This document shows, piece after piece, positions 25,860-51,235 of a stretch of DNA of 64,000 nucleotides. The notes beneath the pieces were generated by a model. It was given only the letters and a program-made list of their open reading frames with translations, was not told where the DNA came from and made no database searches. The position numbers and the translations under genes are program-made. Location: the NCBI RefSeq assembly GCF_004137255.1, contig NZ_SDWT01000001.1, positions 1 to 64,000 of the forward strand, read 5' to 3'. The DNA is from Nocardioides oleivorans (GTDB lineage: Bacteria > Actinomycetota > Actinomycetes > Propionibacteriales > Nocardioidaceae). The first letter of the stretch is position 1. Each line of letters opens with the position of its first letter.

Positions 25860-27581
25860 TCAGGGCACCTCGAAGCGGACCGTCTTCACGGGGTTGTCGA
25901 ACTCGCTCGTGCGCAGCGAGACCTGGACCTCCCAGGTGCCGTTGGTCGGCAGCACCAGGTCACCGGCGTAGATCCCCGGCCCGAGGTTGGTCAGGGCCAC
26001 CTCCCCGAGGTCCACGTCGGTCGCGGACAGGCTCAGGCGTGGCGACTCGTAGCCCTCGGTGGGCCGTCCGTCGTCGTCGGTCAGCGTGATCGTGATCGTC
26101 GTGGGGCCCACCGCGAGCGGATCGAGGGTGACGTCGGCGGAGATGGCGTCGAGCTCGACCACCTGGTCCGCGCTCTGCCCCTCCCCGGAGGGCGAGGTGA
26201 CCGCGACGTCGGGCTCGGGGCTGCGGTCGACGAGGAAGCCGGTGACCAGGAGCACCGCGACCAGCACGCCGGCCTCCGCGAGCGTCGTACGCACCAGGAT
26301 CGACGCAGCCCCCCGGCGCTCGTCACGCGCCGTCGCCGACGCCAGGCCCGGCAGGAGCGCGAACCGGTTCCACGCGGCGACCACGATGGCGACGAGCACG
26401 ATGAGCACCTTCACGAGGAGGAAGCTGCCGTAGCCCGTCTCGAGCAGCGCGCTCCACGACCCGGCCACCCGCCACGCCGTGAACGTCCCCGTGACGACCA
26501 GCAGCGCCAGGACCGCCGACGCCCAGGTCGAGAAGCGGGCGAGCACGCGCGCGCCCGCGTCGTCGCGGTCCGCGAGGTCGCGCAGCACGAGCCCGATCGC
26601 CAGCAGCCCACCCAGCCAGAGCGCGCCGGCCACGAGGTGGAGCACGTCGACGGCGATCACCAGCGCCTCGGGCGTCGTCGCGCGCGTGTGCCCGGTGAGC
26701 GACGGCGCGGCGAGCGCCACGGCGCACCCGGCGAGCACCAGCCCGGAACGCGTCCGGTCGGGAGCCGACGTCGGCAGACCCACCACGGCGAGACCGAGGC
26801 CGGCCGTGACGGCGGCGGGCACGACGTACTCCCAGGCCGAGAGCGCCGACCAGGTCGACCCCTCGCCGAGCGCCGAGGCCGGCAGGCCGAGCTGGTAGAG
26901 CGCCACCATCGGCACGGCGAGCCAGAACGCGACCGCTGCCACCACGGCGGCGATGCGGGCTGCGGTGCGCAGCCGACGGCGGCTGCCGTCGTCGGCCGGC
27001 TCGCGCGGCAGGAAGAGGACGGAGAAGGCCGCGAGGCCCGCCGCGGCGAGCAGGCCGAGGTAGCCCAGCCACCGGACCACGCTGAGCAGGAAGGGGGCGT
27101 CCGTCCCGGCGTCGGCGCTCGTCTCGGGTACGTCGACCACGGCGCTCGGCTCGCCGACCGAGAACGACAGCGAGCCGCCGATCGGGTGGCCGTCGGCGGA
27201 GACGAGTCGCCAGACGACGACGAGGGTGCCCTCGCCGACGTCGTCCTCGAGCTCCACGACGAGCTCGGCCTCGCGCACGGTCGCGGTCGACGCGACCACG
27301 GCGCCCGTGGCGTCGAAGACCTGGATGCCGGCGGGCACCCCGATCACCGACTCGTTGAAGGTGAAGGTGACCTGGTCGGGGGCGGCGTCGAGGACGGCGC
27401 CCTCGGCCGGGTCGGTGCTCACCAGTGTCGCGTGGGCGGACGCGGGCGCTGCCGACCCGAGCACGAGGAGCGAGGTGAGCGGGAGCAGGAGCGCCACGAG
27501 CAGCAGGGGCACGACGCGCCGGCTCCTCGAGCGGCGACCCGGTCGGCGTCCCGGCCCCGGTCGCGGGTGGGCGTCGGTCAT
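25860..27581 (-). CDS. CopC-CopD fusion copper resistance/import protein
   Basis: A 573-residue membrane protein (YcnJ type). A signal peptide ends at ASA, and the mature CopC domain begins HATLVSTDPAEGAVLD with the N-terminal His ligand and the second His in SADGHPIGGSLSFSVG. A CopD domain with about eight helices (residues 150-440; GHTRATTPEALVIAVDVLHLVAGALWLGG) follows, then a periplasm-facing Ig-like tail. CopC carries Cu(II) outside the cell and CopD is thought to pass it across the membrane. Coupled by ATGA to the YcnI gene. The neighbouring copper radical oxidase could be a client of this copper supply. Confidence 0.9.
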   Translation of the reverse strand: MTDAHPRPGPGRRPGRRSRSRRVVPLLLVALLLPLTSLLVLGSAAPASAHATLVSTDPAEGAVLDAAPDQVTFTFNESVIGVPAGIQVFDATGAVVASTATVREAELVVELEDDVGEGTLVVVWRLVSADGHPIGGSLSFSVGEPSAVVDVPETSADAGTDAPFLLSVVRWLGYLGLLAAAGLAAFSVLFLPREPADDGSRRRLRTAARIAAVVAAVAFWLAVPMVALYQLGLPASALGEGSTWSALSAWEYVVPAAVTAGLGLAVVGLPTSAPDRTRSGLVLAGCAVALAAPSLTGHTRATTPEALVIAVDVLHLVAGALWLGGLLAIGLVLRDLADRDDAGARVLARFSTWASAVLALLVVTGTFTAWRVAGSWSALLETGYGSFLLVKVLIVLVAIVVAAWNRFALLPGLASATARDERRGAASILVRTTLAEAGVLVAVLLVTGFLVDRSPEPDVAVTSPSGEGQSADQVVELDAISADVTLDPLAVGPTTITITLTDDDGRPTEGYESPRLSLSATDVDLGEVALTNLGPGIYAGDLVLPTNGTWEVQVSLRTSEFDNPVKTVRFEVP

Positions 27582-28210
27582 GCTCGGCGTCGACGCATCA
27601 CGAGGACGGCGCCGCTGGCCAGGCACCCGGCGGCGAGGACACCGACGGCGCCGTAGGCCATCAGGCGCCCGTCGCCGGGTCCGGCGGCGGCGGTCGGGGC
27701 GGACCCGTCGGAACCCTCGGACCCGTCGGCACCCGTCACCACGATCACCGGTGCCGGCATGTCGAGCTGCTCGCGGCTGGCGGCGTCCTCGGCGACCTCG
27801 GTCCAGGCGGACTCGCCCTCCTCGCACCGCTGGACGATCGGGAAGACCAGCTCGGCGCCCGGCTCGTCGGGCAGCCGCACCGAGAAGGCCACCTCGTCGC
27901 GCAGGGCGTCGGGCAGCGGGTCGTCGGTGCGGAAGGTGATCGACTCCCCCGCGGCCTCGGCGACCCAGCGGTCGGTGCTCGACGCGGTCAGCTCGCTGAC
28001 CCCGGCCGGCATCCGCACGGCGAGCTCCGTCGTCGCCGACCCCGCGCAGCCGTGCGGGACCTCGAGGCGCACCAGCGCGGTCGCTCCGGCGGCGGTGGTG
28101 GACGCGGAGATCGTGACGTGCGCGGCCGCTGGCCCACCTGCCAGCAGGAGGATCGCGCTCACCAGGGCACCCGACACGGCCGCACGCAGCGTCGCGCGGG
28201 TGCGGTTCAT
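27578..28210 (-). CDS. YcnI-family copper-binding membrane protein (DUF1775)
   Basis: A 210-residue secreted protein with a signal peptide ending AAA, a mature N-terminus HVTISAST whose first His binds Cu(II) in YcnI proteins, a DUF1775 domain to about residue 150, a Ser/Gly linker and one C-terminal membrane helix followed by RRRR. Family members work with CopC/CopD in copper handling. ATG at 28210 has GGAGAAC upstream. Confidence 0.9.
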   Translation of the reverse strand: MNRTRATLRAAVSGALVSAILLLAGGPAAAHVTISASTTAAGATALVRLEVPHGCAGSATTELAVRMPAGVSELTASSTDRWVAEAAGESITFRTDDPLPDALRDEVAFSVRLPDEPGAELVFPIVQRCEEGESAWTEVAEDAASREQLDMPAPVIVVTGADGSEGSDGSAPTAAAGPGDGRLMAYGAVGVLAAGCLASGAVLVMRRRRA

Positions 28211-28361
28211 GGAGTTCTCCTGGAGGGCTGGGGTGACCGTGCTCACACAACCAGCCCGTAGAACTGTTGTCAAGGATGTGAACTGCCACTACCGTGATTC
28301 ACGTCACTGAAGTGAAGTCCCACGTGTGAACGAGCACGTCGAATCCCCGAAGGGAACACCC

Positions 28362-28586
28362 ATGCCCAACATCACCGTCGAGCTGCTCAAGGGGCGCTCG
28401 GTCGACCAGCGCCGCGAGTTCGCCAAGGCCGTCGCGGACAGCGCCGTGGAGATCCTCGGCGCCCGCCGCCAGGACGTCCGCATGGTGTTCAGCGAGATCA
28501 CCCCGGACATCGTGGCCAACGGTGGCGTCCTGGCCAGCGAGGACGACAGCCGCGCCGGCGTCGTCGCTGCCCTCGCCGACGACTGA
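28362..28586 (+). CDS. 4-oxalocrotonate tautomerase family protein
   Basis: 74 residues starting Met-Pro, so that Pro becomes the catalytic N-terminal residue after Met removal; PNITVELLKGRSVDQRREF and a conserved Arg near residue 40 fit the family. An upstream in-frame GTG exists at 28326, but only ATG 28362 exposes the proline and has AAGGGA 6 nt upstream. Possible role in aromatic or uronate-derived keto acids is open. Confidence 0.85.
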   Translation: MPNITVELLKGRSVDQRREFAKAVADSAVEILGARRQDVRMVFSEITPDIVANGGVLASEDDSRAGVVAALADD

Positions 28587-28690: not shown

Positions 28691-31600
28691 CTAGCGCTTG
28701 CGGACCTTGATCCTCAGCTGCTCGCTGGTGGACTCCGCGGCCGCGCTGCCCGCGTAGGTCACGGTCAGCCTGATCCGCTTGCCCTTCGCCTTCGGCAGCT
28801 GGATGAAGACGCGACCGTCCTTCAGCGTCCCGGAGAGCGTCTTGCCCCCCGCGATCGTGAAGTCCACGTCACCGGTGACCGCCACGCCGTCAGGTGCCTC
28901 GAGGGAGACCCTGATCGTGGCGCGGTTGCCCTTCTTCACCTTCGACGGCGCCTTGACCGTCATCTCGGGCACGACCTTCGCGACCACGACCGACACCGTC
29001 GAGGACGACGGCTTGTGGCCGGCGTCGCCGAGGTAGCGCAGCGTGAGGGCGTAGGTCCCGGGCAGCAGGCCCTTGGCCGCGAGCTCGAGCCTGGCCTGGC
29101 CCGAGGCGAGCGTGCCGGTGCCCACCACGTCGGTGCCGCTGACCAGCTCGACCTTGCCCGTGGCCGTCGCCGGGGCGACGCTGACCACGAGGTTGCCGGC
29201 CTGGCCGTAGGTGTACGACGCCGAGGCGCCTGCCACCGCGGAGTTGACCGGACCGGTCTCGCCACCGTTGCCGCCACCGTTGCCGCCGCCGTTGCCCGTG
29301 GGCTTGACGGTGATCGTGACCGTCGCCGGTGTCGAGGCGACCTTGCCGTCGTTGGCGACGTAGGTGAACGTGTCCTTGCCCACGAAGCCCGCGTCGGGGG
29401 TGTAGGTGAAGGAGCCGTTCGCCCGCACCTCGACCGTGCCGTTGATCGGCTGGGTCGCACCACCGGCGGTGAGCACGTCACCGTCGGCGTCGGTGTCGTT
29501 GCCGAGGACGCCTGGCGCCGCCAGGGTCAGCGGCTCACCGGAGATGGTGCTGAACGCGTCGTCCACCGCCACCGGGGCCCGGTTGGGCGTCTGGGGCTGG
29601 CCCGTCACCGTGATGGTCACCGTCGTGGCCGCCGACTTCGACGTCCCGTCGTTGGCCCGGTAGGTGAAGGTGTCCGTCCCCGTGAAGCCCGCGTCGGGCT
29701 TGTAGGTGAACGAGCCGTTGGCGGACATCACGACCACACCGCTGGCGGGCTGCACCACGTCACCGGCCGTGAGGGTCGCGCCCTCGGCGTCGGTGTCGTT
29801 GGCCAGGACGCCGGGCGCGGGAACCGTGAGGGTCTCCCCCGCCGTGGCGGCGTAGGCGTCGGGCGCACCGACCGGCGAGGCGTTCGACGTGGCCGAGAAG
29901 ATCGCCTGGACCTCCTGCTCGCTCAGCTCGTAGCCGTAGATGCGGAAGTCGTCGACCCGCTCGGTGGGACGCGGGTCGTTCCAGCTGCCGTTGCCGATGA
30001 AGTTGGCGGTGGTGCCGCCGTCGGCGATGTCACCGATGGTGACCGGGATGTTGTCCCGGGTGCCGCCGGCCTGCAGGACACCGTTGAAGTAGATCTTCAC
30101 CGTCGTCCCGGTTCCCGTGGGCGACTTGCCCAGGGTCACCGCGACGTGCGTCCACTGGTTCAGCGGCAGGTCCGTGTTGCCCGTGAGCTGGGTGCGGTAC
30201 TGCTCGCCGTTGTTCATGCGCAGCGTGGCGGCGAAGCCCCGGGTCCCGTTCTCCGTCCTGGACTGCAGGAGCAGGAACTCCGTCGTGTCCTTGCCGATCT
30301 GGACGTGGGTGGTCCAGTTGGGCAGGGCGGTGGGACGGATCCAGGTGGAGATCGTCGCGTCCGTGGCCATGCCGAACGTGACGTCGTTCGGCAGCTGGAC
30401 GTGACCGCCACCCGGGAGGTTGACGGCGTTGCCGTACTTGCCCTCCGTGCTCCAGGCGGCGTTGCCCGTGAGCGTGGCGTTGCCGATGGCCGGGTCGGAT
30501 CCCGAGTTGGCCGCCGTGGTGCCGGTTCCCTCGTCGAACTTGTAGTGGACGGGGATGCCCTCACCCACCGGCGGACGGGCCACCGTGTGCTGGACCGTGC
30601 CGGTCGAGTCGCGCCAACCGGCGGCCGCGGTGAAGCGGACCTCGATGGTGTGGGCACGGGGGGTCAGCGTGACGGCCGGGAAGGAGACCTGGCCGTTGGT
30701 GACCGTGGCCTGGCTGCCGACGCTCTCGCCGTCGACCCACAGGTCGGCGACACCGGTCGGGTTCGCGTTGGCCGAGTCCTTGACCGTCGCCGACACCGTG
30801 ATGGGGGTGTTGAACGGCGACGGGGAGGCCGGCGTGACGCTGACCGTCGTGGTGGTGTTGAGCGCCGTGCCGTCGGCGTACATCCCGGCGACGTCGGCGT
30901 CGGACAGGGCCGAGGTGTAGAGGCGCACGTCGTCCATCAGGCCGTTGTAGGCCGGGTCCGGATAGCCGTTGCGGCCGAGCCAGTTGTTCGTCGTGGGACC
31001 GATGTCGGTCATGGTGAGCGTCAGGTTGTTGTTCGTGGCGACCTTCGCGCCGTTGAGGTAGAGCGATCCGACGGCACCCTGGCGCGTGAACACGACGTGG
31101 TTCCACTGACCGGCCACGACGTCCTTGGTCGGGGTCGCGTAGACGCGCTCCTGGACGTTGCTGCCCTTCTTCTTGAACGTCGCAGCCAGGCCGGTGTTGC
31201 CGCTCGCCTGGGTCTGCATCTGGATCTGGAAGAAGCTGCCGGCGTCGCCGAGCCCGTCGCCGATGTGGAACATGCCGATCCAGTTGCCCTTCTCGTCCGG
31301 GCGCGCCCAGAACGAGGTGGTGAAGTTCGCCTCGTTCTGCAGCAGGTTGTCCGGAAGGTCCACGGCGTTGGCGTTGGTGCCGCCCAGCAGGTCGACCGAC
31401 TTGCCGGTGACGCCGCTCGTGCTCCAGGTGGTGCTGCCCGTCAGCACGGCGTCACCGACGGTGGTGTCGGAGCCCGTGTTGGCGGCGGTGGTGCCGGTGC
31501 CCTCGTCGAACTGGTACGACACCTGGGCGTCGGCGACCCCGAGGCCCGTGCCCACGACGACGAGGTCGTCGAGGACGAGGCCGGCGGCACCGCTGCCGGT

Positions 31601-34561
31601 GATCGTCAGGTCCTGCTGCCGCCTGGTGGCGACGAAGGTCCCGGCGAAGGTCTCGAACGCGGCGGTGGAGGCCGTCGTGCTCGTCAGGGCCTGCGAGAGG
31701 TTGGCGACAGCCAGGGTCGCCGTGCCCGGCGCAGTGCCGGCCGTGCGGCTGTCACGGGCGTAGCGCACCGACACGCGGTACTCCTTGCCCACGTCCAGTC
31801 CCTTGATGGTGCGGGTCAGCTTGCCGGCCGTGCCCACCGCGAGGTGGTAGCCGGTGCCACCGAGGCCGCCCATGCTGCCGCCGCTGGCGCGCGTGAGCCG
31901 GACCTCGTTGTCGACCTTCCAGGGCGACATCCGGCCGTTGCCGGGAGCCACCACGACGTCGTCGGTCGAGTAGCCACCCGACAGGTACGACGCCGGGATC
32001 CGCGGGTACTCGAACTGGTCGACCACCGTGGGGGCCGGCTTGTTCATCTTCACCGTCGGGTCGATCTGGACGATGTTGGCGACCGACGGCGTGCCGTTGC
32101 TCCACACGAAGACCATGTAGGCGCCGGGAGGCGCGAAGTTGGCGTTCGTCGGGGAGGTGATGTTGACGGTGTTGCCGCTGGTCGTGAAGGCCAGGTCCTG
32201 GAAGTTCTGGTCGTTGTTGAAGCCGTGGGTGACCGAACCGTTGCGGACCAGGGTGACCCGGTCGACCGTCTTGTCGGACGTCAGCGAGAACGAGCCGTTG
32301 TATGCGATCCGCTTCGGGGCGTTGGTGACCACCGGACGCACGGCCGGGGTGTTGCCGTCGAAGAGGTAGGCCGGGGAGTAGTACTCGACGTCGGTGTAGT
32401 TGTGCGGGCCGGGAGCACCGCCACCACCGATCATGATCCGGCCGTCGGGCAGGAGCAGCGCGGTCGAGTGGTAGAGCCGGGCGTGCTCGTAGGGGATCTT
32501 GACCTCGGTCCACTGCGAGCCGCTGGGAGCGTCCGGGTTCCAGATCTCGGCGTTGGTGACGTAGCCGGACTGGCCGTTGTTGTCGCGCGAGCCACCGGTG
32601 ACGATGACCTTGCCGTCGGGCATGACCGTCGAGGACGCCCAGTGGCGGGCGTACTTCATCGGGTCGGTCGCGGCGACCACCGGGCTGGCGGTGCCACCCG
32701 AGATGTCGACGGTGAAGCCGGCGCGGGCGCCGGCGGGGCCGCCGCCGTTGGCCCACCAGCCGCCACCGACCTGCAGGATCTTGCCCGGGCGGTACATCGT
32801 CGCGGTCGACGTGGCGCCGACCGGGTTGCCCAGGGTGCCCTGGTTGCCGCTGCCGTTGCCCAGGGTGCCGCGCATGGTGACCGCACCGTTGCCGGACGGG
32901 TCGAGCTCGAACATCTGGGTGCCGGTGATGGTGAAGACGTTGCCGTTGGTGGGGGCGACGAAGGCGCGCGGGTACCACCAGCGGTTCTCGTCCTGCGGCG
33001 CGTTGGCGCCGTCACCGTAGGCCTGGGCGCTGGTGGCGCCGGTGAGCAGCTTCCACGAGTTGCCCTGCGAGGGGTCGTAGATCTCGGGCGTCTGGACACC
33101 GGGGCCGCCGGGGCCGCCGCGCAGCGAGCCGCCCTGGACCACGATGGAACCGCTGGGCAGCGTCGTACCGGTGGGGTACCAGCGCGGGTAGTTCATCGGC
33201 GCCTCGTTCTTGAGGCCCGCACCCGAGGAGTAGCTGGTGACACCGATGGCGGCGTCGTTCGGGGCGTTGCCGCCGAGGCTGTCGTCACCACCGACGGTGA
33301 AGGTCGAGCGGCGGTGCGGCATCTGCACCTGCATCGAGCAGAAGAGGTCGGTGTAGGTCGCGTTGGGCACCACGCCGGAGACGAGGTTGGCCAGCGTCCG
33401 CGGGATCTTCGGGTCCCACACGTCGATCTGGGTCTGGCCACCCTGGCTCACGCAGTCGTTGCCGCTGTAGTCGTAGGGGTTGGCGTCGGTGCAGCCCGTG
33501 CTGACGGAGCCGAAGGACTGGACCTTGCCGTCGGAGGTGAGGGCGGCGTTGATCGGCATGACGGGCCACGGGGTGACCGCGCTCATCTCGCCCTGCTGGT
33601 CCTTCTGCGGCGGCGAGCAGTCGGCCGCGAGCAGGCCGGCCGAGTAGGCCATGCCGTAGCGCAGCTGGCTGCGCACGAAGTCGTCGGCGCGGTTGTCGTC
33701 GGCGTTGCCGTCGTCACCGGAGGTCCACGTCGTCGCGTGGTGCCCGAGCGAGGAGTACCACGACCGGCCGGAGTCGATCTTCTGGCACCACGTGACGGGG
33801 TGCGAGGTGCCCTCCTCGCCGATGCGCCCGCCGCTGTACGTCGACTCGTCGACGGTGACCAGCGTCTTGACGTTCTGGGTCGGGTTGACGTCCCACTCGT
33901 ACCACTCGTCGGTGTAGGACAGCGGTGACTCGAGGCCCTGCGTGAGCGGGCTGGCCGCGTCGGAGACCGAGATGGTGCCCCGGTAGCCGCCCGCCGGCTC
34001 GGGGTGGCCGGTGGCGGCCGCGCCGACGAGGCGGCGGTAGAAGGGGTTCACGTCGTGCTCGGTCTGGTCGGGCGACCACGCGGTGTAGTGGATGCCGACG
34101 AAGCCGCCGCCGCCGCGGATGTAGGACTCGAGCGCGGTGCGCTGGTCGGTGTTGAACAGCACGCCGGCGGTGTGGGCGAAGACCAGGAGGTCCTTGCTCG
34201 CCAGGTTCTCGGGCGTGAAGGCGGAGGCGCTGGTCGTCTCCTGGATGTCGGCGACGGCAGCGCTCTGGCCGTTGTTGTCGAGGCCGTACTGCGAGGCCAG
34301 CGCGTTGGCCATCTCGCGCACGGCGGCGCGCGTGTTGGCCACGGAGCCGTGCACGCCGTCACCGCTGCTGAACAGCAGGACGCGCAGCACGTCGTCGTCG
34401 CCGGGAGCGGCTGCGGCGACGGGCGCGGCGGTGACCGCGGACAGCGGCAGGGCCACCGCGGTGGCGGCCGCGATGGCCACGAGGTGCTTCAGCGCGCGAC
34501 CGGATCCTCTGGTCTGGCGTCCTGACGGGCGCCGGCTGGCTGATCTGGAGAACAGGTTCAT
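28691..34561 (-). CDS. Secreted ThuA / galactose-oxidase-type copper radical oxidase, multi-domain
   Basis: A 1956-residue exported protein. Signal peptide 1-52; ThuA-like domain about 57-310 (GGGGFVGIHYTAWSPDQTEHD; GRSWYSSLGHH); seven-blade Kelch oxidase with early-set domain about 320-835; carbohydrate-binding-like region about 850-1005; LamG about 1010-1225; Ig-like; second LamG about 1325-1525; two cadherin-like repeats (GVLANDTDAEGATLT, GVLGNDTDADGDVLT); Gly-rich hinge; C-terminal Ig-like. The active site is complete by comparison with galactose oxidase: Cys408 (DLFCSMQ) and Tyr462 (RWYPT) for the Tyr-Cys cofactor, Tyr697-His698 (RLYHSTALLLPDGR) and His779 (THGFNNDQ) for copper. It should oxidise an alcohol or aldehyde with O2, making H2O2. 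The LamG and Ig modules suggest binding to a polymer. The first ATG with AGGGA upstream is 34561. Confidence 0.9.
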   Translation of the reverse strand: MNLFSRSASRRPSGRQTRGSGRALKHLVAIAAATAVALPLSAVTAAPVAAAAPGDDDVLRVLLFSSGDGVHGSVANTRAAVREMANALASQYGLDNNGQSAAVADIQETTSASAFTPENLASKDLLVFAHTAGVLFNTDQRTALESYIRGGGGFVGIHYTAWSPDQTEHDVNPFYRRLVGAAATGHPEPAGGYRGTISVSDAASPLTQGLESPLSYTDEWYEWDVNPTQNVKTLVTVDESTYSGGRIGEEGTSHPVTWCQKIDSGRSWYSSLGHHATTWTSGDDGNADDNRADDFVRSQLRYGMAYSAGLLAADCSPPQKDQQGEMSAVTPWPVMPINAALTSDGKVQSFGSVSTGCTDANPYDYSGNDCVSQGGQTQIDVWDPKIPRTLANLVSGVVPNATYTDLFCSMQVQMPHRRSTFTVGGDDSLGGNAPNDAAIGVTSYSSGAGLKNEAPMNYPRWYPTGTTLPSGSIVVQGGSLRGGPGGPGVQTPEIYDPSQGNSWKLLTGATSAQAYGDGANAPQDENRWWYPRAFVAPTNGNVFTITGTQMFELDPSGNGAVTMRGTLGNGSGNQGTLGNPVGATSTATMYRPGKILQVGGGWWANGGGPAGARAGFTVDISGGTASPVVAATDPMKYARHWASSTVMPDGKVIVTGGSRDNNGQSGYVTNAEIWNPDAPSGSQWTEVKIPYEHARLYHSTALLLPDGRIMIGGGGAPGPHNYTDVEYYSPAYLFDGNTPAVRPVVTNAPKRIAYNGSFSLTSDKTVDRVTLVRNGSVTHGFNNDQNFQDLAFTTSGNTVNITSPTNANFAPPGAYMVFVWSNGTPSVANIVQIDPTVKMNKPAPTVVDQFEYPRIPASYLSGGYSTDDVVVAPGNGRMSPWKVDNEVRLTRASGGSMGGLGGTGYHLAVGTAGKLTRTIKGLDVGKEYRVSVRYARDSRTAGTAPGTATLAVANLSQALTSTTASTAAFETFAGTFVATRRQQDLTITGSGAAGLVLDDLVVVGTGLGVADAQVSYQFDEGTGTTAANTGSDTTVGDAVLTGSTTWSTSGVTGKSVDLLGGTNANAVDLPDNLLQNEANFTTSFWARPDEKGNWIGMFHIGDGLGDAGSFFQIQMQTQASGNTGLAATFKKKGSNVQERVYATPTKDVVAGQWNHVVFTRQGAVGSLYLNGAKVATNNNLTLTMTDIGPTTNNWLGRNGYPDPAYNGLMDDVRLYTSALSDADVAGMYADGTALNTTTTVSVTPASPSPFNTPITVSATVKDSANANPTGVADLWVDGESVGSQATVTNGQVSFPAVTLTPRAHTIEVRFTAAAGWRDSTGTVQHTVARPPVGEGIPVHYKFDEGTGTTAANSGSDPAIGNATLTGNAAWSTEGKYGNAVNLPGGGHVQLPNDVTFGMATDATISTWIRPTALPNWTTHVQIGKDTTEFLLLQSRTENGTRGFAATLRMNNGEQYRTQLTGNTDLPLNQWTHVAVTLGKSPTGTGTTVKIYFNGVLQAGGTRDNIPVTIGDIADGGTTANFIGNGSWNDPRPTERVDDFRIYGYELSEQEVQAIFSATSNASPVGAPDAYAATAGETLTVPAPGVLANDTDAEGATLTAGDVVQPASGVVVMSANGSFTYKPDAGFTGTDTFTYRANDGTSKSAATTVTITVTGQPQTPNRAPVAVDDAFSTISGEPLTLAAPGVLGNDTDADGDVLTAGGATQPINGTVEVRANGSFTYTPDAGFVGKDTFTYVANDGKVASTPATVTITVKPTGNGGGNGGGNGGETGPVNSAVAGASASYTYGQAGNLVVSVAPATATGKVELVSGTDVVGTGTLASGQARLELAAKGLLPGTYALTLRYLGDAGHKPSSSTVSVVVAKVVPEMTVKAPSKVKKGNRATIRVSLEAPDGVAVTGDVDFTIAGGKTLSGTLKDGRVFIQLPKAKGKRIRLTVTYAGSAAAESTSEQLRIKVRKR

Positions 34562-34821: not shown

Positions 34822-35922
34822 TCACCGGCGTACGCGCGCGCTGCCGCCGCCGGCGAGCGCACGGACCTCCGCCGCCGTCGCCATGGACGTGTCGCCGGGC
34901 GTGGTCATCGCCAGCGCGCCGTGGGCGGCGCCGAGCTCGAGGCACTGCTGGAGGGGCTCGCCCTCGAGCAGGCCGTAGACGAGGCCGGAGGCGAAGCCGT
35001 CGCCGCCGCCGACCCGGTCGAAGATGCCCAGGTGGTCACGCGGGGTGGAGGCGAGCACGCCCGTCTCCGGGGACCACGCGATGGCCTGCCAGTCGTTGTC
35101 GCTGGCCGAGTGGACCGTGCGCAGCGTCGTGGCGATCACCTTGAACCACGGCATCTTCTCCGCGACCGTGCCGACCATCGCCTCGAAGCTGTCCATCGGC
35201 AGCGAGCTCAGGTTCTCGTCGACGTGGGCGACCTCGAAGCCGAGAGCGGCGGTGAAGTCCTCCTCGTTGCCGATCATCACGTCGACGTGCCCGGCGAGCC
35301 GGGTGTTGACGTCACGGGCGAACTCCTGGCCACCGATCCCGGCCCACAGGCTGGGGCGGTAGTTGAGGTCGAAGGAGACGATCGTGCCGTGCTTCTGCGC
35401 AGCCGCCATCGCCTCCTCGGCGACCGCCGCGGCGTTCTCCGACAGCGCGGCGTAGATGCCGCCGGTGTGGAGCCAGCGCACCCCGCGACGACCGAAGAGG
35501 TCGTCCCAGTCGACGGTGCCGGGTCGCATGTGGGCGATGGCGGTGTTGGCCCGGTCGGACACGCCGACCGCACCGCGGACGCCGTACCCCCGCTCGGTGA
35601 AGTTCAGGCCGTTGCGCACGGTGCGCCCGATGCCGTCGTAGTCCTCCCAGCGGATCAGCGAGGTGTCGACGCCGCCCTGCATGATCAGGTTCTCGACCAG
35701 GTGGCCGATCTCGTTGTCGGCCAGTGCGGTGACGACGCCCGCGCGCTTGCCGAAGACCTTGCGCATGCCTCGCGCGACGTTGTACTCGCCGCCGCCCTCC
35801 CACGCCTCGAACCGGCGGGCGGTGCGGATGCGCCCCTCCCCCGGGTCCAGGCGCAGCATCACCTCGCCGAGCGCGACGATGTCGAGCTCGCACTCCTCGG
35901 CGGGTCGGGTCTCGATGGTCAT
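34822..35922 (-). CDS. kdgK: PfkB-family sugar kinase, probable 2-dehydro-3-deoxygluconokinase
   Basis: A 366-residue ribokinase-fold enzyme. FEAWEGGGEYNVARGMRKVF is the substrate-binding GG motif; the catalytic base lies in DRVGGGDGFASGLVYGLL (GAGD-type). Context, directly after eda and in an operon with kduI and kduD, points to phosphorylation of 2-keto-3-deoxygluconate to KDPG. Start ATG 35922 overlaps the eda stop (ATGA). Last gene of the uronate operon. Confidence 0.9.
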   Translation of the reverse strand: MTIETRPAEECELDIVALGEVMLRLDPGEGRIRTARRFEAWEGGGEYNVARGMRKVFGKRAGVVTALADNEIGHLVENLIMQGGVDTSLIRWEDYDGIGRTVRNGLNFTERGYGVRGAVGVSDRANTAIAHMRPGTVDWDDLFGRRGVRWLHTGGIYAALSENAAAVAEEAMAAAQKHGTIVSFDLNYRPSLWAGIGGQEFARDVNTRLAGHVDVMIGNEEDFTAALGFEVAHVDENLSSLPMDSFEAMVGTVAEKMPWFKVIATTLRTVHSASDNDWQAIAWSPETGVLASTPRDHLGIFDRVGGGDGFASGLVYGLLEGEPLQQCLELGAAHGALAMTTPGDTSMATAAEVRALAGGGSARVRR

Positions 35923-36575
35923 GCGGTCACTCCTTGGACGATCGGGTGCAGATCAGGTGCGTAGAGGGCGGTCGAGGCGGCGCACTTGGCGGCCACGTCG
36001 TCCCAGCGACCGGCCTTGAGCAGGTCGCCGGCCACCATCCAGCTGCCGCCGACTGCGGCGACGGACGGGTGGGCGAGGTAGTCCGGGGCGGTGTCGACGG
36101 TGATCCCGCCGGTGGGCATGAAGCGCACCTGCGGGAACGCGGCGGCGAGCGCCTTGATCGTGGCCAGCCCCCCGTTGGCCTCGGCCGGGAAGAACTTCAC
36201 GGTGTCGAGGCCCAGGTCGAGGGCGAGCATGATCTCGCTCGGGGTCGCCACGCCCGGGATCACCGGCACGCCGGCGTCCTGGCAGCGTCGTACGACGGAC
36301 GCACTGAGGCCCGGGGACACGACGAACTTCGCCCCCGCCTCGATCGCCTGGTCGACCTGGCGGTCGGTGAGGACGGTGCCGGCGCCGACGACGAGGTCGT
36401 CGTTGGCGGCGAGGCGGCGCAGGACCGCGGCCGCCTCCGGCGTGCGGAACGTCGCCTCGGCGACCGGCAGCCCGCCCTGCACGAGGGCCGCGCCGAGGGC
36501 GTCGGCCTTGGCTGGGTCGTCCAGGACGACCACCGGCACGATGCGGTGGCCGCCCAGGACGTCAGTGGCGTTCAC
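35919..36575 (-). CDS. eda: 2-dehydro-3-deoxyphosphogluconate (KDPG) aldolase
   Basis: A 218-residue class I aldolase splitting KDPG into pyruvate and glyceraldehyde 3-phosphate. The Schiff-base lysine is in DTVKFFPAEANGG, the catalytic Glu in VAEATFRTPEA, and the phosphate site in FMPTGGITVD. GTG start at 36575. Coupled to kdgK, and only 20 bp from the aldehyde dehydrogenase gene. Confidence 0.94.
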   Translation of the reverse strand: MNATDVLGGHRIVPVVVLDDPAKADALGAALVQGGLPVAEATFRTPEAAAVLRRLAANDDLVVGAGTVLTDRQVDQAIEAGAKFVVSPGLSASVVRRCQDAGVPVIPGVATPSEIMLALDLGLDTVKFFPAEANGGLATIKALAAAFPQVRFMPTGGITVDTAPDYLAHPSVAAVGGSWMVAGDLLKAGRWDDVAAKCAASTALYAPDLHPIVQGVTA

Positions 36576-36595
36576 GGTAGGAGTCGACCCCTCGA

Positions 36596-38098
36596 TCAAC
36601 GGAGCTCGGCGATGACGGTCTTGAGCTCGGTGTAGTCGTCGAGGCCGAAGGAGCCGAGCTCGCGACCCCAGCCGGACTGCTTGAAGCCGCCGCGGGGCAG
36701 CGTCACGTCGTCGGCGTGCCACGTGTTCAGCCACACCGTGCCGGCGCGGAGCTTGCTGCCGACCCGGTGCGCGGTGCCGAGGTCCTTCGACCAGACACCG
36801 GCGGCGAGGCCGTAGACGGTGTTGTTGGCGGCCGCGACGACCTCGTCCTCGGTGTCGAACGGGATGGCGGTGATGACGGGGCCGAAGATCTCGTCGGTCT
36901 GGACGGCCATGTCCTCGGTGACCCCGGTGATGAGGGTCGGCGAGAAGAAGTAGCCGGTCTCGGCGGCCCGGTCCGGGCTGCCGGCGACGATGTTGGCGCC
37001 GTCCTTGACCGCGCCCGCGACGTAGCCCATGACCTTCTCGTGCTGCTCCTGCGAGACCAGCGGTCCCATCGTGGTGCTCGGGTCGAAGCCGTCGCCCACC
37101 TTGATCGCCTTGGCCGCGGCCGCGACGCCCTCGATGACCTGGTCGAACACGTCGCGCTGGACGTAGAGGCGCGAGCCGTTGACGCAGCACTGGCCCTCGT
37201 TGAAGTAGCCGGCGAGCGCGGCGCCCGCGATGGCCGCCTCGAGGTCGGCGTCGTTGAAGATGATGTTGGGGGCCTTGCCACCGAGCTCGAGGGAGACCTT
37301 CTTGAGGTTCTTCGAGGCGCCGGCCGCGATCTTCTTGCCGACCTCGGTCGAGCCGGTGAAGGCGACCTTGTCGACGTCGAAGTGGTCGACGAGCGCGGCA
37401 CCGGCGTCGCCGAAGCCGGGCAGCACGTTGACGACGCCGGCGGGGACGCCGGCCTCGAGGAGCAGCTGGCCGAGGTAGAGCGCGGTGAGCGGGGTCTGCT
37501 CGGCCGGCTTGAGGACAACCGTGTTGCCGGCGGTGATCGACGGGATCACCTTGAAGGCAGCCATCGTGAGCGGGAAGTTCCACGGCACGATGCCGGCCAC
37601 GACGCCGAGGGCCTCGCGGCGGGTGTAGGCGTGGAACTCACGACCCGGCACCGACATCGGGATGGTGGTGCCCTCCATCTTGGTGGCCCAGCCGGCGAAG
37701 TAGCGGAAGAGCTCGGCGGCCACGCCGGCGTCGCCGCGGGCGGAGGCGAGGCTCTTGCCGTTGTCGAGCGACTCGAGCTGGGCGAACTCCTCGATCCGGT
37801 CGTCGATCATGTCGCCGATGCGCCACAGCAGGTGCGAGCGGTCGCGGGGAGTCATCTTCGACCACGACGAGCCGGACTCGAAGGCGTTGCGGGCAGCCAC
37901 CACGGCGCGGTCGGCGTCGACCGCGGACGCCTGGGCGACCGTCGCGAGGACCTGCTCGGTCGCGGGGTTGATGGTGTCGAAGGTCTTGCCGTCCTTCGCG
38001 TCGACCCACTCGCCGTCGATGAGGAGCTGGCGCGGCGAGGAGAGGAACGAGGAGACGGCGGGCAGGAGCTGGGAGTTCAGCTGGGAGTTCTCGGACAT
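36596..38098 (-). CDS. NAD(P)-dependent aldehyde dehydrogenase
   Basis: A 500-residue ALDH with catalytic Cys in NEGQCCVNGSR, general base in SLELGGKAPN, cofactor region VPWNFPLTMAAFK and GFKQSGWGRELG at the end. Similar to betaine/indoleacetaldehyde-type ALDHs, so substrate cannot be read from sequence. In this operon it may oxidise a sugar aldehyde such as a dialdose made by the neighbouring copper oxidase, or an alpha-ketoglutarate semialdehyde-like intermediate. Both are inference. The 85 bp to the permease gene contain no gene. Confidence 0.9.
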   Translation of the reverse strand: MSENSQLNSQLLPAVSSFLSSPRQLLIDGEWVDAKDGKTFDTINPATEQVLATVAQASAVDADRAVVAARNAFESGSSWSKMTPRDRSHLLWRIGDMIDDRIEEFAQLESLDNGKSLASARGDAGVAAELFRYFAGWATKMEGTTIPMSVPGREFHAYTRREALGVVAGIVPWNFPLTMAAFKVIPSITAGNTVVLKPAEQTPLTALYLGQLLLEAGVPAGVVNVLPGFGDAGAALVDHFDVDKVAFTGSTEVGKKIAAGASKNLKKVSLELGGKAPNIIFNDADLEAAIAGAALAGYFNEGQCCVNGSRLYVQRDVFDQVIEGVAAAAKAIKVGDGFDPSTTMGPLVSQEQHEKVMGYVAGAVKDGANIVAGSPDRAAETGYFFSPTLITGVTEDMAVQTDEIFGPVITAIPFDTEDEVVAAANNTVYGLAAGVWSKDLGTAHRVGSKLRAGTVWLNTWHADDVTLPRGGFKQSGWGRELGSFGLDDYTELKTVIAELR

Positions 38099-38183: not shown

Positions 38184-39194
38184 CTACTTGATGATCGCCA
38201 CCTTCGAACGGTCGAGGGTCAGCGCGACGGCGGCGACGATGATCGCGCCGTAGAGGATCTGCTCCCAGGCCGACGGCACGCCGACGATGGGCAGGCCGAC
38301 CCGCAGGAGGGTCACCACGAGCGCTCCCGCGAGGCTGCGCCAGAGCGAGCCGTGGCCGCCCGTGATCGCCGTACCACCGACGACGATGGCCGCGACGGCG
38401 GGCAGGAGCAGGTTGTCGGCCATGGTCGGGCTGCCGCTGAAGTTGCGGGAGGCGAGCATGACGGCGGCGAGACCGGCGCAGGCGCCGGAGATCGTGAACG
38501 CCGCGACCTTGACGATGTCGACGGGCGTCCCGGCCAGGCGGGCGGCGGACTCGGAGTAGCCGATGGCCTTGACGAAGCTCTCGAGCGGGGTGAGCTTGAG
38601 GACGAGCGAGACGACCGCGACGACCAGCACCGCGACGAAGAACGACATCGGGACGTAGCCCGCGACGTAGAGGTTGAGCCACTTCGTCGCGTCGCGGTCG
38701 ATGACGCGGATCGGGCCGGCGTCGGAGATGACGAGCGCGACGGCGGAGAAGATGCTCATGCCTCCGAGCGTCACCACGAAGGACGGGATCCGGAGCAGCA
38801 CGTGGGCCAGGCCCTGGATCGCGCCGATCGCACCGGCGGCGGCGATCACGACGAGGATGGTGAGGCCGCCCAGGTCGGGCAGCCACATCGCGAAGAAGAC
38901 CGTCGAGAGCGAGCAGAGTGCCGCGATCGACAGGTCGATGCCGCCGCACAGCACCACGAGCGTGGCGCCGGCCGCGAGCACCACGAGCGGTGCCGAGGTG
39001 CGGACGGCCGCGGTGAGGCTGCGCTGGGTCAGGAAGTCCGGGTCGGCGATCGTCAGTGCCGCGAGCAGCGCGACGAGGGCGATGACCGGCATGAACGACG
39101 TGACGCGCTGGGCGAGGGTCGGACCGCCCTTGACGACGGCGGCCTCGGCCGACGGGGTCTGGCCGGACTCGGGAGCCAGGACTGGGGTGGCCAT
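38184..39194 (-). CDS. Sugar ABC transporter permease (RbsC type), second copy
   Basis: A 336-residue membrane protein of the branched-chain/ribose permease family with about ten helices. Signatures: LVVLCGGIDLSIAALCSLS, FVVTLGGMSIFSAVALV, GYSESAARLAGTPV (EAA-like loop) and VVGGTAITGGHGSLW. The operon encodes two different permeases around one ATPase, so the channel is probably a heterodimer. ATG 39194 overlaps the ATPase stop by one base. Confidence 0.93.
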   Translation of the reverse strand: MATPVLAPESGQTPSAEAAVVKGGPTLAQRVTSFMPVIALVALLAALTIADPDFLTQRSLTAAVRTSAPLVVLAAGATLVVLCGGIDLSIAALCSLSTVFFAMWLPDLGGLTILVVIAAAGAIGAIQGLAHVLLRIPSFVVTLGGMSIFSAVALVISDAGPIRVIDRDATKWLNLYVAGYVPMSFFVAVLVVAVVSLVLKLTPLESFVKAIGYSESAARLAGTPVDIVKVAAFTISGACAGLAAVMLASRNFSGSPTMADNLLLPAVAAIVVGGTAITGGHGSLWRSLAGALVVTLLRVGLPIVGVPSAWEQILYGAIIVAAVALTLDRSKVAIIK

Positions 39195-40756
39195 CAGACC
39201 ATCTCCTTGACGAGGTCGAGCGGGGTCGGCTTGCCACCGGAGGGGCACGCGACCTCCTTGGTCGCCCGGCCGTCGTTCATCACGATGATCCGGTCGGACA
39301 TGCCGATGGCCTCCTCGAGGCTGTCGGCGAGCAGGACGGTGGCCACGCCGCTGTTGGCGAGCTCGCGCATCAGGCGGTAGACCTCCGAGCGCGCGCCGAT
39401 GTCGAGCCCCCGCGTCGGGTGGTCGAGCAGCAGCAGCCGGATGTCACCGGCGACGAGCCAGCGGGCCAGGACGACCTTCTGCTGGTTGCCCCCGGAGAGC
39501 CGACCGATCTGGGTGCCGCGGTGCGGGGTGCGGATCGAGAGGCGCTCGATCCACTTGTCCACCAGGGTCGCCTGCTTCTGCGGTATGACCATCGGGCCGG
39601 CGCAGCGGGACTTCTGCTTGGTGAGGGTCATGTTGTCGGCGACCGACATCGGCCCGACCATGCCCTCGATCTTGCGCTCGGCCGGGACGTACCCGACACC
39701 GGACGCGACCGCGGCACGGGTGCCGGACAGGTCGAGCTTCGCGCCGTCGAGGGTGACCTCGCCGGCCAGGGTGGGCTCGGCGCCGAAGAGCGCGCGGCAC
39801 ACGTCCTCGCGACCGGAGCCGTGCACGCCGACGATGCCGACGATCTCGCCGGCCTTCACCTCGAGGTCGACGTCGCGGAAGGTCTTGCCGGACATGCCCT
39901 TGACGACCAGCCGGGGCTCGGCCTCCGCGGCGGACCGCTCGGACATGCCCTCGTGGTAGTGGTCGTCGGACCCGGTGGAGCCGATCATCAGGCGGTGCAG
40001 GTCGGTCGGCGCGGCGTCAGCGGTGGGCATCTCGCCCACGGACTGACCACCGCGCAGCACGGCGACGCGGTCGCACACGTCGAGGACCTCGTCGAGGCGG
40101 TGCGAGACGAAGACGACCGACGCGAACTCGCGGAGCCGGCGCACCTGCGTGAAGAGGGTCTCGATCTCCTTCGACTCCAGCACCGAGGTGGGCTCGTCGA
40201 GGATGATCACGGGCGGGTTGGAGGTGCGCTCCTCGATGCGGAGCACCTTGGCGATCTCCACCATCTGGCGCTCGGCGAAGGTGAGGGTGTCGGTGCGCGC
40301 AAGGGGGTCGATGTGGGAGCCGATCTTGTCGAGCTGCTCCTGCGCCATCTTGCGCAGCGTGTCCCAGCGGTAGATGCCGCGCCGGACGCCCGCGCCCTCG
40401 CTGCCGAGGACGATGTTCTCGGCGGCGGTGAGGTTGGGGACCAGCGACTGCTCCTGGAACACCATGCCGATGCCGTGGTCTGCCGCCTCGACGACGCTGC
40501 GCAGCCTCACCTTCTCGCCGCGCACCCAGATCTCGCCGGCGTCGGGCCGGACCAGGCCGACCAGCGCCTTGAGCAGGGTGGACTTGCCGGCTCCGTTCTC
40601 GCCGGCGAGGCCGAGCACCTCGTTCTGGCGCACGACCAGGTCGACGCCGTCGAGCGCCTTGACGCCCGGGTAGTGCTTGACCAGGCCGCGCACCTCGAGG
40701 GCGTGGACCGGGGCCGGCGCCTCCGTCTCGGGGTGGGCCTGCACGTGGGTGGTCAC
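39194..40756 (-). CDS. Sugar ABC transporter ATP-binding protein (RbsA/MglA type)
   Basis: A 520-residue protein with two nucleotide-binding domains. The first has Walker A GENGAGKST and Walker B VIILDEPTS, but its signature is TFAERQ rather than LSGGQ. The second has a degenerate Walker A (GVHGSGRED, Lys replaced by Arg), a good LSGGNQQK signature, and LLLDHPTRG with His for the catalytic Glu. Such asymmetry is normal in the ribose/galactose importer ATPases. ATGA overlap with the upstream permease. Confidence 0.95.
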   Translation of the reverse strand: MTTHVQAHPETEAPAPVHALEVRGLVKHYPGVKALDGVDLVVRQNEVLGLAGENGAGKSTLLKALVGLVRPDAGEIWVRGEKVRLRSVVEAADHGIGMVFQEQSLVPNLTAAENIVLGSEGAGVRRGIYRWDTLRKMAQEQLDKIGSHIDPLARTDTLTFAERQMVEIAKVLRIEERTSNPPVIILDEPTSVLESKEIETLFTQVRRLREFASVVFVSHRLDEVLDVCDRVAVLRGGQSVGEMPTADAAPTDLHRLMIGSTGSDDHYHEGMSERSAAEAEPRLVVKGMSGKTFRDVDLEVKAGEIVGIVGVHGSGREDVCRALFGAEPTLAGEVTLDGAKLDLSGTRAAVASGVGYVPAERKIEGMVGPMSVADNMTLTKQKSRCAGPMVIPQKQATLVDKWIERLSIRTPHRGTQIGRLSGGNQQKVVLARWLVAGDIRLLLLDHPTRGLDIGARSEVYRLMRELANSGVATVLLADSLEEAIGMSDRIIVMNDGRATKEVACPSGGKPTPLDLVKEMV

Positions 40757-41772
40757 TTCGTCACCTGGTTCCTACGACGCTGGGGGATGACCGCGGCCGA
40801 GACGGCCGCGACGACGATGAGTCCCTGGACACCGCCCTGCCAGTAGGGGCTGACGCCGATCTGGACGAGGCCGTTGGTGAGGACGATGACGAGCAGCACG
40901 CCCACGGCGGAGTGGAGCACTCCCCCGCGCCCGCCGGTGAGCAGGGTGCCGCCGACGACGGCCGCGGTGATCGCCGCGAAGTCGTAGCCCTTGCCGGCCT
41001 GGACGAGGCCGGCGCTGAGCTGGCTGGTCACCATCACGCCCGCCAGCCCGTAGAACGAGCCGGCGAGGGTGAAGACGGCGACCTTGAACGGGGCGACCCG
41101 CACGCCCGAGAGCGCGAGCACCTCCTCGGCGCCGCCGATGGCGTACGCGTAGCGGCCCAAGCGCGAGTAGCGCTGGATCAGCCAGCCGACGAGCACGCAG
41201 CCCATCGCGATCCAGGTCAGGTAGGCCAGGCCCAGGAAGCGGTTGACGGCCCAGCCGTGCAGCATCTCGTCGGAGATGTTGGGCTGCACGCCCGAGAACA
41301 TCAGCGTCGCGATGCCGAGCCCGACGGCGGAGACGCCGAGCGTGGTCATGAACGACGGCACCTTCAGGCCGACCAGCGCGACCCCGCTCAGGCAGCCGAG
41401 GGCCGCACCGAGGCCGATCGCGACCAGGACCCCGAGGAGTCCCAGGTCGTTGCCGTTGCGGTTGTTGGCGACCAGGAGGGCCACCGCGATCGCGGAGGCC
41501 CCCATGACGCCCGGGGCGGAGAGGTCGATCGACCCCATCATCAGCACGAAGGTGATGCCGCAGGTCACGACGGCGAGGACCGCCGCCGCGTCCATGATGT
41601 TCTGCACGTTGCCGACCGTGCGGAAGTCAGGGCTCAGCACCGCGAAGATGCCGAAGATGACCACCAGTGCGATCGGGGGACCTGCGTCCCGGAGCGACAC
41701 CCCCCGCCGAGGCTGGGGGCGCGGCCCGACTGCGACCTCGTCGTCAGCCTTGGCGGGGGATGTCATGGTCAC
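40753..41772 (-). CDS. Sugar ABC transporter permease (RbsC type), first copy
   Basis: A 339-residue permease, about ten helices, with LMMGSIDLSAPGVMGASA, FMTTLGVSAVGLGIAT, GGAEEVLALSGVRV and VVGGTLLTGGRGG. GTG at 41772 overlaps the stop of the binding-protein gene (GTGA); an ATG two codons later is also possible. It works with the second permease, the ATPase and the lipoprotein to import a sugar, probably a uronate or uronate-containing oligosaccharide given the operon. Confidence 0.93.
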   Translation of the reverse strand: MTMTSPAKADDEVAVGPRPQPRRGVSLRDAGPPIALVVIFGIFAVLSPDFRTVGNVQNIMDAAAVLAVVTCGITFVLMMGSIDLSAPGVMGASAIAVALLVANNRNGNDLGLLGVLVAIGLGAALGCLSGVALVGLKVPSFMTTLGVSAVGLGIATLMFSGVQPNISDEMLHGWAVNRFLGLAYLTWIAMGCVLVGWLIQRYSRLGRYAYAIGGAEEVLALSGVRVAPFKVAVFTLAGSFYGLAGVMVTSQLSAGLVQAGKGYDFAAITAAVVGGTLLTGGRGGVLHSAVGVLLVIVLTNGLVQIGVSPYWQGGVQGLIVVAAVSAAVIPQRRRNQVTK

Positions 41773-44671: not shown

Positions 44672-44756
44672 GCACCTGAATACTGTCCATGTATGCGAAC
44701 TCGCGCTACAGTCAGGAGAAGTGGGGCAGGGGGCCCCTGACACCACGAGGAGTTCG

Positions 44757-49189: not shown

Positions 49190-51235
<2,046 letters not shown>

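Follow-up and report, generated by a model that had tools for sequence, protein, structure and literature searches.

A predicted ThuA-fused copper radical oxidase encoded beside a conserved KduI/KduD sugar catabolic cluster in Nocardioides oleivorans and relatives

Introduction

Copper radical oxidases (CROs) of solved structure include the galactose oxidases of Fusarium (1gof) and Pseudarthrobacter (9g43/9g8h), GlxA of Streptomyces (4unm) and the fungal glyoxal/aldehyde oxidase FgrAldOx (9n3u). Published work describes a Trp stacked on the Tyr-Cys cofactor, which is W290 in galactose oxidase and comes from elsewhere in the chain in GlxA and FgrAldOx, where W288 and W509 stand just before the cofactor Tyr (PMC13094651). 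A second described system is the KduI-KduD core of pectin and glycosaminoglycan clusters, which works together with 2-keto-3-deoxygluconate (KDG) kinase and 2-keto-3-deoxy-6-phosphogluconate (KDPG) aldolase; the usual route to 5-keto-4-deoxyuronate (DKI, also DHU) runs through a GH88 hydrolase, with ring opening either non-enzymatic or catalyzed by KdgF (PMC12838403). Here we analyze the first 64,000 nucleotides of contig NZ_SDWT01000001.1 of Nocardioides oleivorans (the window), in which a single gene, designated ThuA-CRO, joins a ThuA domain to a CRO core and lies beside genes of the KduI/KduD type.

By computation, we observe the CRO fold, the full set of metal and cofactor residues, the fusion to ThuA, and a conserved linkage to genes for KduI, KduD, a sugar importer and an aldehyde dehydrogenase, mostly with a tautomerase as well. 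It is fairly probable, in our estimate, that ThuA-CRO is a secreted, polysaccharide-associated CRO with a site of the glyoxal-oxidase/GlxA type, and that it serves a dedicated pathway of sugar catabolism as its entry enzyme outside the cell. The component families (CRO, ThuA, LamG, KduI and the rest) are known, and the ThuA-CRO architecture with its conserved genomic setting was not found described: among the papers listed from the open-access literature, which leaves subscription papers outside, none reports a ThuA-CRO fusion or a link between a CRO and KduI, and none deals with a copper radical oxidase in Nocardioides.

Results

ThuA-CRO (28691..34561, minus strand) has an ATG start and encodes 1956 residues; an alternative GTG start would extend the frame to 28691-34669 (1992 residues), and its third-position GC content is 0.95. 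The CRO core (residues 315-835, 32057..33619) carries C408, W461, Y462, Y697, H698 and H779. Alignment with galactose oxidase chains places C408, Y462, Y697-H698 and H779 on the Cys, Tyr, Tyr-His and His of these enzymes, in the same order along the chain, and GlxA has the same five residues. All five are unchanged in the 13 ThuA-CRO proteins that 11 genus genomes encode. Across 71 named ThuA-CRO loci, C408 and Y462 are kept in 71/71, and Y697, H698 and H779 in 69/69, two rows being gapped. These loci were retrieved with the patterns [DG]ENRWWY and HGFNNDQ, so that the conservation of N526-Y530, H779, D784 and Q785, which fall inside the patterns, is partly by construction. A sequence-only reading of the window had named the same five residues as catalytic; they occupy the positions it counted, align with galactose oxidase and are invariant.

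The core was modelled from residues 315-840 with 57 aligned sequences (pLDDT 88.4, pTM 0.91). The best 25 PDB matches of the model are all galactose-oxidase-like copper oxidases, and the next is a propeller lectin (Z 24.2). Closest are the galactose oxidases 9g43/9g8h and 1gof (Z 48.0 and 46.3; root-mean-square deviation (rmsd) 2.2 over 458 and 466 residues; 31% and 28% identity in the aligned core), followed at some distance by GlxA (Z 41.2, rmsd 2.6 over 454) and FgrAldOx (Z 39.2, 24% identity). The kelch-type propeller and E-set fold expected of the oxidase core is thus seen in the predicted structure, and alignment to the solved oxidases by both sequence and modelled fold supports the putative copper site.

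The position of galactose oxidase W290 aligns with L480 in ThuA-CRO and is Leu in 56, Val in 8, Ser in 4 and Ile in 2 of the 71 loci; the aromatic second-shell residue that is a trait of the galactose 6-oxidases (AA5_2) is therefore Leu here. W461 directly precedes the cofactor Y462 in 71/71 loci, as W288 adjoins Y289 in the GlxA chain sequence and W509 adjoins Y510 in FgrAldOx (PMC13094651). The best NCBIfam match is the GlxA equivalog NF052501, at 117.9 bits against a cut-off of 800, and the glyoxal-oxidase N-terminal family PF07250 reaches 35.0 bits, slightly below its cut-off of 37.5. By hand reading, the counterpart of galactose oxidase R330 is Q523, in a gapped and variable stretch of the alignment. 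Judged by these residues, the site is of the GlxA/glyoxal-oxidase kind, though below the GlxA and PF07250 cut-offs. ThuA-CRO looks like an apparently intact copper radical oxidase and not a plain galactose oxidase, because of the W461-Y462 arrangement and the Leu at the galactose-oxidase Trp position, the two features that weaken the latter candidate. With such a site, the CRO may act mainly on aldehydes. A glyoxal oxidase is reportedly able to carry out both oxidation steps on glycerol, and we know of no natural substrate for most bacterial CROs.

The domains flanking the core were assigned with Pfam. Residues 1-52 (34406..34561) read as a signal-like segment, a basic stretch followed by a hydrophobic run, and residues 60-281 (33719..34384) form the ThuA domain (PF06283, E 6.6e-44, 151.1 bits against a cut-off of 33.4, with a fold match to 4jqs). 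The region from ThuA to the galactose-oxidase-like E-set domain (residues 742-833, 32063..32338; PF09118, E 5.6e-23, above cut-off) is the kelch-type oxidase core. It is followed by two LamG stretches (PF13385), at residues 1063-1225 (30887..31375) and at about 1337-1552 (29906..30553, limits from a 5hon match), two cadherin-like/Big_9 repeats at about 1555-1755 (29297..29899; PF17963, PF17892) and C-terminal Ig-like Big_3_5 repeats at about 1779-1956 (28694..29227; PF16640), the limits of both repeat regions being approximate. This layout, in one frame on the minus strand, agrees with the earlier description of a 1956-residue chain in which ThuA stands ahead of a galactose-oxidase fold and LamG, Ig and cadherin-like modules follow. 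The modules behind the core are, as far as their families tell, polysaccharide-type adhesion modules, and it is plausible that the LamG/Ig tail tethers the enzyme to the wall or to a polymer. For GlxA, unlike ThuA-CRO, the domains described are kelch and E-set only (PMC3543389); galactose oxidases differ in that the N-terminal part of ThuA-CRO is ThuA, and fungal FgrAldOx has a WSC domain (PMC13094651) in contrast to the ThuA and LamG domains found here.

To examine the ThuA domain, a model of ThuA and CRO together was built from 13 rows (pLDDT 59, with long CRO stretches below 50), of which the ThuA half only was used. Foldseek matched it to the ThuA-like protein BACUNI_01602 (4jqs/4pxy) with a target TM of 0.70-0.71, in line with a sequence match at E 2.4e-9; unlike ThuA-CRO, BACUNI_01602 was solved without a CRO part. 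A weaker match is a GATase1-like protein. H186, E188, D218, E219, W220, H254, R266 and H274 are kept in 71/71 loci. Wherever a row has data at the position (69 or 70 rows), H71, H158, E168 and D170 are kept as well, and H169 is kept in 68/70. With this set of polar residues fixed, a working pocket in the domain is likely. The sequence-only reading had taken ThuA for a second redox-type sugar module related to trehalose metabolism. That idea was dropped: the Pfam, fold and sequence matches lend it no support, nothing found points to a redox cofactor, the fold match is to ThuA-like 4jqs, and trehalose enters through the family name alone.

The genes upstream of ThuA-CRO in the window lie on the same strand after a gap of 260 bases, and a promoter and terminator scan of 34400-34900 found none on either strand. 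They encode a KDG kinase-like PfkB sugar kinase (34822..35922; PF00294 above cut-off, best NCBIfam match NF041633 below cut-off), a KDPG/KHG aldolase (35919..36590, start approximate; PF01081 5.6e-69, TIGR01182 and NF004325 above cut-off), an aldehyde dehydrogenase (36596..38098; PF00171 3.3e-173, with no NCBIfam model above cut-off among 25 listed), a sugar ABC importer (38184..42860; PF02653, PF00005, PF13407), a KduD-like dehydrogenase (43002..43883, real start probably near 43775; TIGR01832 338.8 bits, cut-off 338.85) and the 5-keto-4-deoxyuronate isomerase KduI (43772..44590; NF002091 361.9 bits, cut-off 250). The importer comprises a permease (38184-39248), an ATPase (39194-40756), a second permease (40753-41772), assigned by its clustering with the other importer permease and not by domain scan, and a binding lipoprotein (41769-42860). 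An IclR-type regulator is encoded divergently (44721..45554, plus strand; PF01614, PF09339). On the downstream side lies a 4-OT-like tautomerase (28326..28586, plus strand; PF01361 5.7e-12, NF001966 below cut-off), whose likely start is the ATG at 28362, leaving Pro-1; the MPNITVELL start is conserved in most loci.

These neighbours bear on the possibility, in our view unlikely, that the CRO works as an aldehyde oxidase of the glyoxal type, turning sugar or lignin-derived aldehydes into acids outside the cell, the cluster then importing and degrading the acids with no elimination. The Trp-Tyr adjacency typical of GlxA and the fungal aldehyde oxidases speaks for it, as do the best NCBIfam match, far below cut-off as it is, and the finding that KduI also facilitates galacturonate and glucuronate breakdown in E. 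coli (PMC3578941). Such an oxidase would, however, give no account of the cytosolic aldehyde dehydrogenase or, in most loci, the tautomerase, and no altronate or mannonate dehydratase family turned up among the nine window neighbours scanned.

We next considered how widely the gene and its setting are conserved (numbers with G, L and f denote genomes, loci and families in our samples). In a protein search of 98 genus genomes, full ThuA-CRO was found in 11, the top full-length matches among those listed, with a second copy in two of them, the window's own genome (G000) and G071. The sequence-only reading had proposed looking for the architecture in databases: the 71 named loci come from Nocardioidaceae, Promicromonosporaceae, Cellulomonadaceae, Micromonosporaceae, Streptosporangiaceae, Geodermatophilaceae, Jiangellaceae, Kribbellaceae and one Microbacterium, and ThuA with at least part of the CRO stands in one frame in 71/71, the gene seeming broken further on in L123 and L127. 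In a class sample of 394 genomes, E-set (PF09118) proteins occur in 88 and ThuA-CRO (E 1e-100 or better) in nine.

Neighbours of the 71 loci were counted by tblastn (E 1e-12) within the fetched stretch. Cluster genes lie beside ThuA-CRO in 69/71: KduD in 66, KduI in 47, either of the two in 66, the binding protein in 68, the ATPase in 66, the aldehyde dehydrogenase in 66, the tautomerase in 47 and the IclR regulator in 37, the KduI and IclR counts being lower bounds because several stretches end before reaching them. The 11 genus genomes all have KduI, an ABC permease and IclR upstream; also called there are the binding protein (10/11), the ATPase (9), the aldehyde dehydrogenase (9), the sugar kinase (8) and KduD (3), again lower bounds, since the simple gene caller misses or merges genes. 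Two genomes without a called aldehyde dehydrogenase (G053, G046) have one in the corresponding loci (L060, L064). At least three arrangements occur, with the cluster upstream in most loci, downstream in L078, L081 and L101, and divergent in L114 and L115. In a tree of the CRO part (70 rows without L123 and L127; quick method, SH-aLRT only, groups set by hand), host families are mixed, and well-supported branches force at least 5-6 changes in kinase and aldolase presence. Because the tree mixes families and the arrangements differ, the association has been kept through transfer and rearrangement. The conserved KduI/KduD/ABC importer/aldehyde dehydrogenase cluster is, as a genomic context, the main clue to the role of ThuA-CRO.

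The setting differs from that of GlxA. It is improbable, though conceivable, that ThuA-CRO acts to modify the glycan coat of its own cell, like GlxA in Streptomyces, with the neighbours recycling the glycan. A role in cell wall morphogenesis, together with a cellulose-synthase-like partner, is indicated for GlxA (PMC13094651), and the genome of N. oleivorans has a ThuA-CRO paralogue, 75% identical (G000:C1:1126334-1131205; L002, L006:2577-7781), that lies outside the catabolic cluster, with no KduI cluster and an adjoining DUF4397 gene, a pair that recurs in G071. Yet glxA stands next to cslA in a putative operon (PMC3543389) and not in a KduI cluster, whereas the nine window neighbours scanned include no glycosyltransferase, no unlabelled gene family is common to more than 11 of the 71 loci, and the sugar importer and IclR regulator point to nutrition. 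Near this paralogue, we also observed a 2439-residue open reading frame (L005:5363-12682) with ThuA, glucose/sorbosone dehydrogenase (GSDH), PKD, CBM6, GH43_C2 and DUF1349 domains, another case of ThuA joined to a sugar oxidoreductase.

To relate ThuA-CRO to the isomerase and the tautomerase across whole genomes, both were searched in the genus and class samples. KduI scores above cut-off in 12/96 genus genomes, namely the 11 with ThuA-CRO and G006, which has a GH88/105 gene about 3 kb from KduI, its other neighbours being judged by first residues only; G082 gives a partial match (225.6 against a cut-off of 250). The window tautomerase (E 1e-10) occurs in 11/96 genus genomes, exactly the ThuA-CRO set, though in G080 on a different contig from ThuA-CRO, whose contig ends there. 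In the class sample, KduI is above cut-off in 9/9 ThuA-CRO genomes and 22/385 others (31/394 in total), and the tautomerase (E 1e-8) is present in 9/9 and 13/385 (22/394). The Fisher P values for co-occurrence in the genus and class samples are 1.4e-13, 1.1e-14, 3.5e-11 and 8.6e-13. Of the 31 KduI genomes, 15 have the tautomerase on the same stretch as KduI, about 15 kb away and next to ThuA-CRO in G000, G021 and G247, and within less than 8 kb in the other 12.

Between families the tautomerase shows striking conservation, and it goes with KduI clusters that have no GH88/105 nearby: among the 31 KduI genomes the two are never found together near KduI (P 6.8e-5), and neither is nearby in five, including G080. 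As a partner of ThuA-CRO alone, the tautomerase fails at class level, because it is carried by seven KduI genomes without ThuA-CRO, six of them from one family (f18). In two of the f18 genomes (G151 and G413; L160 and L164), we observed KduI-KduD-IclR-tautomerase clusters with a PL3-type pectate lyase, L160 having a sodium:solute symporter in addition; the lyase was detected near KduI by Pfam in G151 and with a probe from G151 in G413, and not on the other four f18 stretches. The tautomerase accompanies KduI where GH88/105 is not adjacent, lyase-fed cases included, which is consistent with its converting the enol form of a 4,5-unsaturated sugar acid to the keto compound DKI. It is a possible stand-in for KdgF, and its presence suggests that an unsaturated acid of this kind is an intermediate of the ThuA-CRO clusters too.

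The enzymes that supply unsaturated uronates were then sought. GH88/105 and PL1 were each found in 0/11 ThuA-CRO genus genomes, with the positive control detected in both searches, and a PL8 search of the same genomes gave no match, its control being silent too. No ThuA-CRO genome of the class sample (0/9) has a GH88/105 gene within 10 kb of KduI, vs 11/22 of the other KduI genomes (P 0.012). As a neighbour of ThuA-CRO, PL3 was rejected, the probe matching 2/175 locus sequences, both of them KduI loci without ThuA-CRO and one the probe source; the probe covers the locus stretches. With the clusters of PMC12838403 the ThuA-CRO loci share the KduI-KduD core and, in some loci, KDG kinase and KDPG aldolase; ThuA-CRO, an aldehyde dehydrogenase and often a tautomerase are added, and GH88/105 is not adjacent in the nine class-sample cases; the words 'oxidase' and 'tautomerase' have no occurrence in the text of that paper.

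These searches bear on the explanation that the cluster is an ordinary pectin or uronate operon fed by lyases elsewhere in the genome, with ThuA-CRO as an accessory that makes H2O2 or detoxifies aldehydes and shares only its regulation. Cellulomonas and Promicromonospora, which are among the host genera, are known biomass degraders, as such an operon would lead one to expect. KduI, KduD, KDG kinase and KDPG aldolase form the standard route (PMC12838403), the tautomerase also belongs to KduI clusters that lack ThuA-CRO, a PL3 pectate lyase accompanying two of these, one genome (G379) has the cluster and no CRO, and most lyase families were outside the search. An ordinary uronate operon is nonetheless a rather unlikely explanation in our assessment. 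KduI/KduD, the ABC importer and the aldehyde dehydrogenase stay beside ThuA-CRO in 69/71 loci while KDG kinase and aldolase vary, with the changes on the CRO tree counted above, GH88/105 and PL1 are missing from all 11 genus genomes, and no ThuA-CRO stretch examined has a PL3-like gene. To our knowledge, moreover, aldehyde dehydrogenase is not part of the standard uronate route.

Two further genes follow on the downstream side in the window, a DUF1775 protein (27578..28273, minus strand; PF07987 9.4e-26), which we take to be YcnI-like, and a CopC-CopD fusion (25860..27584, minus strand, start approximate; PF04234 and PF05425 above cut-off). A CopC-CopD-type gene is found downstream in 10/11 genus genomes, the contig ending in the eleventh, and YcnI in six. 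Genes of the two kinds stand beside ThuA-CRO in many Nocardioides, Promicromonosporaceae, Cellulomonas and Kribbella loci, and in Micromonosporaceae a CopCD match occurs in L112 only, at the other end of the stretch. As universal partners the copper genes were rejected, CopCD or YcnI being present in 43/71 loci only. Their position beside the oxidase in part of the loci suggests a putative dedicated copper supply. Elsewhere in the window, 49190-51322 (minus strand) encodes a 710-residue protein that looks secreted and contains repeated ELWRTDGT-like segments; Pfam gave no match for it at 0.001.

Discussion

From fold, residues and genomic linkage, ThuA-CRO most likely acts outside the cell as the entry enzyme of an oxidative pathway from sugar to KDG. 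The scheme that we propose begins outside the cell, where the CRO would oxidize C6 (the primary alcohol and/or the aldehyde) of hexose residues. With a carbonyl at C6, the substituent at C4 would be able to leave and a 4-deoxy-4,5-unsaturated sugar aldehyde would form; the resulting monosaccharide would be imported by the monosaccharide-type ABC system. In the cytosol, the aldehyde dehydrogenase would convert the sugar aldehyde to the acid and the tautomerase would give the 5-keto form DKI, from which KduI, KduD, KDG kinase and KDPG aldolase would lead to pyruvate and glyceraldehyde-3-phosphate. This C6-oxidation scheme is the shortest one that uses every conserved gene of the cluster. Taken by itself, the C6-oxidation/elimination route is tentative, and we hold it doubtful.

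Chemical precedent exists for the elimination. Galactose oxidase reactions yield the 6-aldehyde, galacturonic acid and an alpha,beta-unsaturated aldehyde, and the last forms non-enzymatically, favoured by heat and alkali and avoided at moderate pH without heating (PMC3388858). Since elimination is avoided under such mild conditions, the cell would need a catalyst, for which the ThuA domain is the obvious candidate. In our scheme ThuA would act on the oxidized sugar, either by elimination or by release of the unsaturated unit. A bolder version is a lyase-free entry to the KDG pathway, in which the CRO oxidizes C6 of neutral hexose residues, the fused ThuA works as an eliminase/hydratase and takes the C4 or C1 partner off the oxidized sugar, and the aldehyde dehydrogenase and a KdgF-like tautomerase lead to DKI; this we consider speculative and improbable enough to be offered only as a candidate.

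Several observations weigh against the proposed entry role. At the active site, two features speak against a simple galactose 6-oxidase, the second shell of glyoxal-oxidase type and Leu at the W290 position, and they weaken the C6-alcohol step. In the ThuA half, overall conservation is lower than in the CRO half among the 13 genus proteins, and no tested reaction for a ThuA domain was found among the papers listed from the open-access literature. The linkage is not strict in either direction. KDG kinase lies beside ThuA-CRO in just 32/71 loci and the aldolase in 34/71; both, when upstream, fall inside the fetched stretch. ThuA-CRO stands without the cluster in L077, whose genome holds a second copy with the cluster (L098), in L127, which has a CopCD, a tautomerase and an IclR gene only, and in the own-genome paralogue (G000:C1:1126334). 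Conversely, the tautomerase accompanies KduI in the seven class-sample genomes without ThuA-CRO, three of which (G151, G366 and G413, all f18) hold PF09118 proteins on other contigs, and in G379 (L166), whose genome gives no PF09118 match, the KduI/KduD/ABC/aldehyde dehydrogenase cluster stands with a tautomerase, so that the cluster does not always come with a CRO.

The statistics and the lyase searches call for similar care. The Fisher P values overstate the evidence, because the genomes share ancestry. Counted anywhere in the genome, GH88/105 is present in 2/9 ThuA-CRO genomes, far from KduI, vs 14/22 other KduI genomes (P 0.054). The genome-wide search was limited to PL1, PL8 and GH88/105, leaving PL3, PL9, PL10, PL11, PL22 and others outside it. 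Linkage of this kind, moreover, would indicate common use of the genes and not the order of the reactions.

For the entry role of ThuA-CRO, the value of the cluster is that it ties a CRO and a ThuA domain to a known downstream pathway, so that the candidate products narrow to a 4-deoxy-5-keto sugar acid or a precursor of it. The gene context suggests that sugars may be eaten in an undescribed way that starts with extracellular oxidation by ThuA-CRO. Should the oxidative route prove real, neutral polysaccharides would be degraded by chemistry like that of uronate lyases with no uronate in the polymer. If, further, the entry is lyase-free, one secreted chain would take the place of both a uronate lyase and an unsaturated uronyl hydrolase in attacking an uncharged polysaccharide, and ThuA domains, which also occur beside GSDH in the same genome, would gain a general role in processing oxidized sugars.

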